NCBI GenBank assembly: GCA_017415145.1
Contig: JAFQJE010000007.1
Location: 124,001-188,000, forward strand
DNA length: 64,000 nucleotides
Direction: 5' to 3'
DNA from: Clostridia bacterium
GTDB taxonomy: Bacteria > Bacillota > Clostridia > UBA1381 > UBA9506
In this document: in pieces, positions 15,664 to 16,168 of the stretch
How the letters are laid out: each line of letters opens with the position of its first letter
Numbering within the stretch: the first letter of the stretch is position 1
Program-made: the position numbers and the translations under genes
The notes under the pieces: model-generated
What the model saw: the letters and a program-made list of their open reading frames with translations, nothing else
Databases searched by the model: none
What the model was told of the DNA's origin: nothing

Positions 15664-15714
15664 TTGACAAACCCCCATTTTTGTGGTAAAATGTCAAGGT
15701 CAAGTGAAGACCTT

Positions 15715-15830
15715 GCGGATATGGCGGAATTGGCAGCTTCAAGCACGAGCGCTACCAGTGGCAGATGTAGCGAGTGTGAGAAGGTGCAGCGGTCGAAATC
15801 TTTGATTTCGGGAACCGCAAACTGTCTCGC
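15715..15830 (+). other. tRNA-Leu 5' fragment fused to a structured sequence
   Basis: The first 22 bases, GCGGATATGGCGGAATTGGC plus AG (15715-15736), are identical to the 5' end of the intact tRNA-Leu at 15887. After that the sequence departs. It contains GCTAC...GTAGC pairing around CAGTGGCAGAT and a hairpin with GCGGT/ACCGC closing CGAAATC-TTT-GATTTCG (15788-15819). No tRNA D-loop, anticodon or T-arm follows, so it is not a functional tRNA. The function is unknown. Confidence 0.6.
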
Positions 15831-15886
15831 GGTACGCGTATGACAATTGTGCCATTATGATGATATAATTACTTAACTTAATATTT

Positions 15887-15973
15887 GCGGATATGGCGGA
15901 ATTGGCAGACGCGTACGGTTCAGGTCCGTATGAAAGCAATTTCATGCAGGTTCAAGTCCTGTTATCCGCACCA
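15887..15973 (+). tRNA. tRNA-Leu (anticodon CAG)
   Basis: The 87-nt gene folds as a class II tRNA. Acceptor arms are GCGGATA/TATCCGC, the anticodon stem is TACGG/CCGTA with loop TTCAGGT (anticodon CAG), and the variable arm is TGAAA-GCAA-TTTCA. The T-arm is CAGG-TTCAAGT-CCTG, and CCA is encoded. It reads CUG codons. It is flanked by a copy of its own 5' end (15715) and of its own 3' end (16101). Confidence 0.95.
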
Positions 15974-15974
15974 A

Positions 15975-16012
15975 AAATACGGCATGCCCTTTGTTGGTGT
16001 GCCGTGTTTTTT
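15975..16012 (+). terminator. tRNA-Leu terminator
   Basis: ACGGCAT/GTGCCGT arms directly after the CCA end are followed by TTTTTT. Confidence 0.75.
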
Positions 16013-16027
16013 ATTCAAATGGATGGC

Positions 16028-16121
16028 AGGACTTGAAGGGTCAGGAGTGAATGCTTGCCAGTGGCAAGCAGAGCCGACCACAGCTCCGTCCGCAGACGGG
16101 CAAGTCCTGTTATCCGCATCA
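16028..16121 (+). other. Structured element ending in a copy of the tRNA-Leu 3' end
   Basis: CAAGTCCTGTTATCCGCATC plus A (16101-16121) matches the last 21 bases of the tRNA-Leu with one change (CCA to TCA). The preceding bases can form a multi-branch fold: AGGACTTG (16028) with CAAGTCCT (16101), hairpin GCTTGCC-AGT-GGCAAGC, and hairpin CCGTC-CGCA-GACGG. It has no anticodon arm and is not a tRNA. A terminator-like hairpin follows at once. Function unknown; it could be a remnant or a tRNA-derived RNA. Confidence 0.6.
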
Positions 16122-16158
16122 AAATATGGAGTATCCTTTTGGGGGCTCCATATTTTTA
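16120..16158 (+). terminator. Hairpin terminator after the tRNA-like element
   Basis: AAAATATGGAG/CTCCATATTTTT arms are followed by a T-rich tail, directly abutting the TCA end of the tRNA-like element. Confidence 0.65.
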
Positions 16159-16168
16159 TTGGACAACT

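Follow-up and report, generated by a model that had tools for sequence, protein, structure and literature searches.

tRNA genes and possible insertion elements beside them in Clostridia

tRNA genes are main docking sites for bacterial genomic islands, and an integrase is normally tied to one or a few tRNAs. In the islands that target tRNA and tmRNA genes, an intact gene stands next to a displaced fragment of the same gene, and the sizes of these islands peak at 13.6 and 39.9 kb (Islander, PMC4383910). A second group of sequences worth considering here comprises the small stem-loop repeat families of bacteria, such as REP/PU-BIME, ERIC and RPE, which are 50-300 bp long, intergenic, strongly folded and multi-copy, and which have family-specific ends (PMC2267715). 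MITEs and other non-autonomous transposons are small, encode no protein, are presumed to be mobilised in trans and carry terminal inverted repeats. Finally, guide-directed transposons of the CAST type that home to tRNA genes have a short stretch complementary to a tRNA gene next to a structured segment.

Here we describe short, non-coding, folded DNA elements that sit just outside tRNA genes in a group of gut Clostridia, each carrying direct and inverted copies of the end of the very tRNA beside it. They look like tiny mobile elements of a kind that we could not match to a described family. Like tRNA islands, they combine an intact tRNA or tmRNA gene with a displaced direct fragment of that gene; unlike them, the units are about 140-250 bp long with cores of 60-160 nt, contain no integrase or other gene, include an additional inverted copy of the gene end, and use one core at many different tRNAs, also at 5′ ends. 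They share size and folding with the stem-loop repeat families, but their end arms are copies of whichever tRNA gene is adjacent and their placement is mainly at tRNA gene ends. With respect to MITEs, they have neither a fixed terminal repeat nor a short constant target duplication, as the arms change with the tRNA and the duplicated stretch is the gene end plus terminator. The likeness to CAST elements is a resemblance only; Cas and Tn7 genes were not looked for beside the elements, and no search for Cas12k, TnpB or IscB was made. Literature searches, within open-access papers, found no description of such elements or of cognate tRNA arms.

Organization of the tRNA-Leu(cag) locus

The starting point was an intact tRNA-Leu(cag) gene in the window, a 64,000-nucleotide stretch (positions 124,001 to 188,000 of contig JAFQJE010000007.1, assembly GCA_017415145.1) of a 1.12-Mb draft genome of a Clostridia bacterium, hereafter G000. 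An earlier note, made from the sequence alone, had described copies of the 5′ and 3′ ends of this tRNA on either side of it, each joined to a foldable sequence. The observation proved correct, and represents one case of a recurrent pattern. Element A (15715-15859) and element B (16021-16121) flank the gene, and the features that compose them are collected in Table 1.

Table 1. Features of the tRNA-Leu(cag) locus, in window coordinates
Position	Strand	Feature	Basis
15664-15692	+	Promoter-like site upstream of element A (TTGACA-17-TAAAAT)	11 of 12 consensus bases
15713-15736	+	T5, direct copy of the tRNA-Leu 5′ end with TT leader, ending in the D-loop	24/24 identical to 15885-15908
15737-15840	+	Core A (structured); related copies beside tRNA-Leu(tag) in two genomes	Fold of the whole element, z = -2.5 as RNA and -3.7 as DNA
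15841-15859	+	T5′, decayed inverted copy of the tRNA 5′ end, overlapping the -35 of the second promoter-like site	Read from the sequence; pairs with T5 in the RNA and DNA folds
15840-15869	+	Second promoter-like site, between A and the tRNA (ATGACA-18-TATAAT)	11 of 12 consensus bases
15887-15973	+	Intact tRNA-Leu(cag) gene	tRNA and Rfam searches
15974-16020	+	Proximal terminator-like hairpin and spacer	Read by eye; not called by a simple scan
16021-16037	+	T′, inverted copy of the tRNA 3′ end (T-loop to acceptor)	17 nt, 88% complementary to 15951-15967; 16021-16035 pairs with 16101-16115 (15 nt, 87%)
16038-16100	+	Core B, two stacked helices ending in a CCAGTGG tip plus a CGCA-loop hairpin	Covariation between copies; fold
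16101-16124	+	T, direct copy of the tRNA 3′ end (T-loop to CCA), CCA reads TCA	23/24 identical to 15953-15976
16118-16159	+	Distal terminator-like hairpin	Inverted repeat, 14 nt, 93%

Element B therefore has the order T′-core-T, in which a 15-bp stem closes a three-hairpin core of 63 nt. Element A mirrors this plan on the 5′ side, with the break in the D-loop. As claimed in the note, CCAGTGGCA is present in both fragments (15755-15763 and 16058-16066), and in B it forms the tip of a perfect hairpin. The AGGACTTG/CAAGTCCT stem that the note proposed to close a three-stem fold is also real, and it is longer than described. What the note missed is that the 5′ strand of this stem is itself an inverted copy of the tRNA end, and that two promoter-like sites are associated with element A. 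Folded as RNA, B reaches -51.8 kcal/mol (z = -6.0, 0/200 shuffles), and as DNA z = -5.1, whereas A is weaker.

The note had offered three interpretations, namely tRNA-derived RNAs, recombination remnants of a tRNA array and scars of tRNA-targeted integration, and this part of it is only partly supported. The integration scar fits best, since the elements recur beside many tRNA and tmRNA genes, are variably present at one orthologous locus, and the far arm is a displaced gene end. A single degraded tRNA array is rejected, as only the arms are tRNA: the cores have no tRNA similarity and recur at unrelated tRNAs with matching arms. Indeed, a search against Rfam returned only tRNA at the cut-off, and nothing credible for the elements at E values up to 1. 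The RNA reading is neither shown nor excluded.

Recurrence of the cores beside tRNA and tmRNA genes

The note had named the absence of the fragments from other places as evidence against its proposal, and a search for them gave the opposite result. The same or related cores occur beside Leu, Ser, Thr, Pro, Arg, Glu, Lys, Gln and Tyr tRNA genes and tmRNA in at least six families of Clostridia. Further copies stand beside other tRNAs in G000 itself. In the genus, core B is found beside tRNA-Leu(cag), Leu(gag), Thr(cgt), Pro(cgg), Ser(gga) and Arg(acg). A second core, C, with about 120-130 nt between the arms, recurs beside Glu(ctc), Ser(gga), Lys(ttt) and, in altered form, Lys(ctt). We had considered that core C starts with a piece of the tRNA-Glu anticodon arm, but this idea was dropped once the same stretch appeared beside Ser and Lys.

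A pattern scan of GTDB genomes found core B in other ruminant-gut Clostridia, including tandem elements behind tRNA-Leu(gag) and copies behind the tmRNA gene (loci L031 and L027 of our survey, in tandem in L031). Pattern matches outside Clostridia (Pseudomonas, Comamonas, Chloroflexi and others) are most likely chance, as they score nothing or next to nothing with the covariance model. Covariance searches detected core B in 9 of 95 genomes of the order and in 5 of 391 of the class, distributed over at least six families and again mostly beside tRNAs, in this case Ser(gga), Gln(ctg) and Tyr(gta). The survey rests on searches and on retrieved stretches. Viral contigs gave no match to the core B pattern, and the listed best matches of phage and plasmid records to the window stretch cover only the tRNA part. 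Host tRNAs look enriched for isolated, decoding-redundant isoacceptors (Leu cag/gag, Glu ctc, Lys ctt, Pro cgg, Thr cgt, Gln ctg, Ser gga), an impression not tested against a background. An A-like core lies behind tRNA-Asn (L064/L004), preceded by a copy of the Asn 5′ end into which an 11-nt inverted D-arm piece is inserted, and in Subdoligranulum (OY725838.1, locus L184, 1940-2265) about 50 bp of leader plus the first 45 nt or so of a tRNA-Leu are duplicated upstream of the intact gene, like an A-type layout.

Core B also exists away from tRNAs with different, fixed-looking ends. At six loci (L028, L029, L045, L051, L100 and L103) its hairpin occurs inside other long palindromic intergenic repeats of Clostridia, with ends GTAGCG...GAGAC. 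Moreover, in G000 a core B element with tRNA-Leu(gag)-type arms (L003, contig C4, 69540-69636) stands without a tRNA beside it, while the tRNA-Leu(gag) of this genome (L084) has none. A different recurring sequence, CGTCGGAAC...GTTCCGATTTTTT followed by a TTCCTCCTTTTTCGCAAAAAG-type stretch, starts directly at the CCA of tRNAs or of T copies at L055, L098, L102, L104 and L105, and seems to replace the terminator.

The presence of core B away from tRNAs with other arms is compatible with ordinary duplication, in which unequal recombination would have duplicated tRNA ends with terminators or promoters, common palindromic repeats of Clostridia would have inserted between the copies, and hairpin-driven template switching during replication would have made the inverted arms. 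Tandem units in genome G136 and at L036, as well as perfect stems without wobble, which fit palindrome correction at the DNA level, also speak for this view. On the other hand, breakpoints are repeatedly in the T-loop or D-loop, the same core is found at many different tRNAs in the fixed order T′-core-T, and T′ stands 43-62 nt behind CCA at most loci, so that we regard this explanation as unlikely.

The arms match the adjacent tRNA

To evaluate whether the arms are cognate, the ends of all other tRNAs were scored against the same downstream stretch at each tRNA locus. At most element-bearing loci, 0 of about 51 other tRNA ends fits the direct copy as well as the own one, which argues against chance. 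The inverted copy is less specific, because T-arms resemble one another. T also tracks the host's own variant of the tRNA: within tRNA-Ser(gga) of ten genomes, eight elements fit the variant of their own host as well as or better than any other (for example 21/21 in G190), while two (G012 and G136) did not fit their own tRNA best.

Covariation of the cores

Both cores B and C show compensatory base changes. In seven copies of core B, 15 of 34 pairs change on both sides, with 92% of cells paired, and in six copies of core C the same is true for 20 of 43 pairs; in both cases 0/500 shuffles reach the observed values. In core B the helix made of T′ and T shares in this covariation (7 of 15 pairs). 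Such changes are expected of a structured RNA, but also of a structure acting as single-stranded DNA. The central hairpin of core B is almost free of wobble pairs, and G-U pairs hardly outnumber A-C mismatches (11 against 8 in core B and 39 against 27 in the wide set, although 9 against 2 in core C). The wobble pattern thus gives no clear RNA-strand signal, and the data do not say whether the structure acts as RNA or as DNA.

These observations bear on the possibility that the elements are genes for structured RNAs with tRNA-like ends. In this view, T′ and T would form an acceptor/T-arm-like helix ending in CCA, transcribed by read-through of the tRNA terminator (B, C) or from the tRNA promoter (A), processed by the tRNA 3′-end machinery, and having a regulatory or decoy role. 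The covarying multi-helix cores, the CCA and terminator kept after T at many loci, the promoter-like site directly upstream of A and the greater stability as RNA on the tRNA-sense strand (-51.8 against -44.1) are consistent with it. No expression data were examined, so transcription and defined ends were not assessed. However, the small excess of G-U pairs over A-C mismatches in core B and the wide set and the near absence of wobble in the central core B hairpin are more like DNA palindromes, CCA is mutated in the window, presence is patchy, and neither the mirrored 5′ layout nor core swaps at one locus are expected of a conserved RNA gene. We therefore consider this reading possible but doubtful.

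Variable presence and duplication of the terminator

Thirty tRNA-Ser(gga) loci were read. Elements are present in G000 and G012 (core C), G011 (truncated C), G002 and G094 (core B), G010, G016 and G019 (a third core) and G092 (a C-like core cut by the contig end), and G085 carries B. In one genus (g6) the locus has the same upstream gene in seven species, four with and three without an element, and cores differ. G083, without an element, and G085, with one, also share upstream genes. Downstream genes were not shared between element-bearing loci and their relatives, so that no exact empty site with both flanks conserved was found. At tRNA-Ser(gga), G000 and its congener G002 carry cores C and B, respectively, behind near-identical terminators and T′.

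The terminator after T is a recognisable duplicate of the tRNA's own terminator at 4 of 16 loci (scores 64, 74, 38 and 81, against a cross-locus 95% value of 24). At the other 12 loci the two terminators are not recognisably alike, the window included, where the likeness is weak (score 16). In addition, G136 has tandem copies of the whole unit, cut by the contig end, and a further copy on another contig. As regards restoration of the split gene by site-specific recombination, as in tRNA islands, the layout and the tandem units fit, but in the absence of a clean empty site the question is left undecided.

A further possibility is that the elements are remnant attachment sites of conventional integrase-carrying tRNA islands that have lost their contents. 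The tRNA-Ser(gga) of G004, G006 and G008 (loci L124, L123 and L126) is followed by an opposite-strand open frame that, by reading the sequence, resembles a tyrosine integrase, and in G004 a 42-nt 5′ fragment of the tRNA lies upstream: an ordinary tRNA island. Likewise, Monoglobus pectinilyticus (NZ_OY725741.1, L182) has a tRNA-Leu closely similar to that of the window (about 91%) with an annotated tyrosine recombinase directly downstream; orthology between the HTH gene upstream in the window and a gene near this kind of tRNA-Leu in Monoglobus was tested and not supported. Nevertheless, the same structured cores recur at unrelated tRNAs, are conserved by covariation and are 60-160 nt long, whereas conventional attachment-site remnants would be unrelated to one another and would not carry inverted arms, which makes this origin very unlikely.

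A proposed model for insertion at tRNA gene ends

We favor, with moderate confidence, the view that A and B belong to a family of very small, protein-less, structured insertion units that lodge at the outer ends of tRNA and tmRNA genes. What the analysis demonstrates directly is the arrangement: on the 3′ side, the recurring unit consists of the gene end from T-loop to CCA (T), a terminator, the inverted gene end (T′) and a structured core, followed by a second T and often a second terminator, and units can stand in tandem; on the 5′ side the layout is mirrored. The break in the T-loop or D-loop, the few cores shared between different tRNAs, the cognate arms, the covariation and the patchy presence belong to the same body of direct evidence. 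The mechanism, by contrast, we only deduce. A unit would enter at the T-loop or D-loop, whose stems form a natural inverted repeat, so that the tRNA stays intact and the original gene end is displaced outward, as with ordinary tRNA-targeted islands, by machinery that must act in trans. Against this view speak the lack of an identified mobilising enzyme, the 12 of 16 loci at which the two terminators are not recognisably alike, the lack of an exact empty site with both flanks conserved, and the two Ser(gga) elements that did not fit their own tRNA best.

How T′ and T come to match each new tRNA is the unexplained step, and site-specific recombination alone does not explain how one core acquires arms for many different tRNAs. 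It can be postulated that the inverted arm is made by fold-back copying of the target during insertion, or that it is kept complementary afterwards because the hairpin is what the mobilising machinery recognises; neither idea was tested. No mobilising enzyme was found. The Y1 (RAYT) transposase profile PF01797 has no match in the three genomes of the genus (G000, G001 and G002), although it is present in some other host genomes. The single reverse transcriptase of G000, next to a conjugation-type gene, is of the group II intron type judged from its sequence, and the one PF00589 (integrase-family) gene in this genome lies on the same contig but about 120 kb away from the elements. These absences are weak evidence, because the genomes are 54-85% complete. 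A bolder reading, which the data allow but which we consider unlikely, is that these are a class of protein-less elements that re-target themselves by copying the end of the tRNA gene they enter into their own inverted arm, so that one core can colonise any tRNA or tmRNA gene without destroying it. There is a real but unproven chance that they represent a new transposition strategy.

Implications for tRNA genes in Clostridia

An element whose arms match whichever tRNA it adjoins would need a target-copying step that, as far as we are aware, has not been described for bacterial elements. If instead the units are transcribed, they would be a new class of tRNA-ended RNA. Either way, they can distort tRNA annotation and the reading of tRNA fragments and attachment sites in Clostridia metagenomes.
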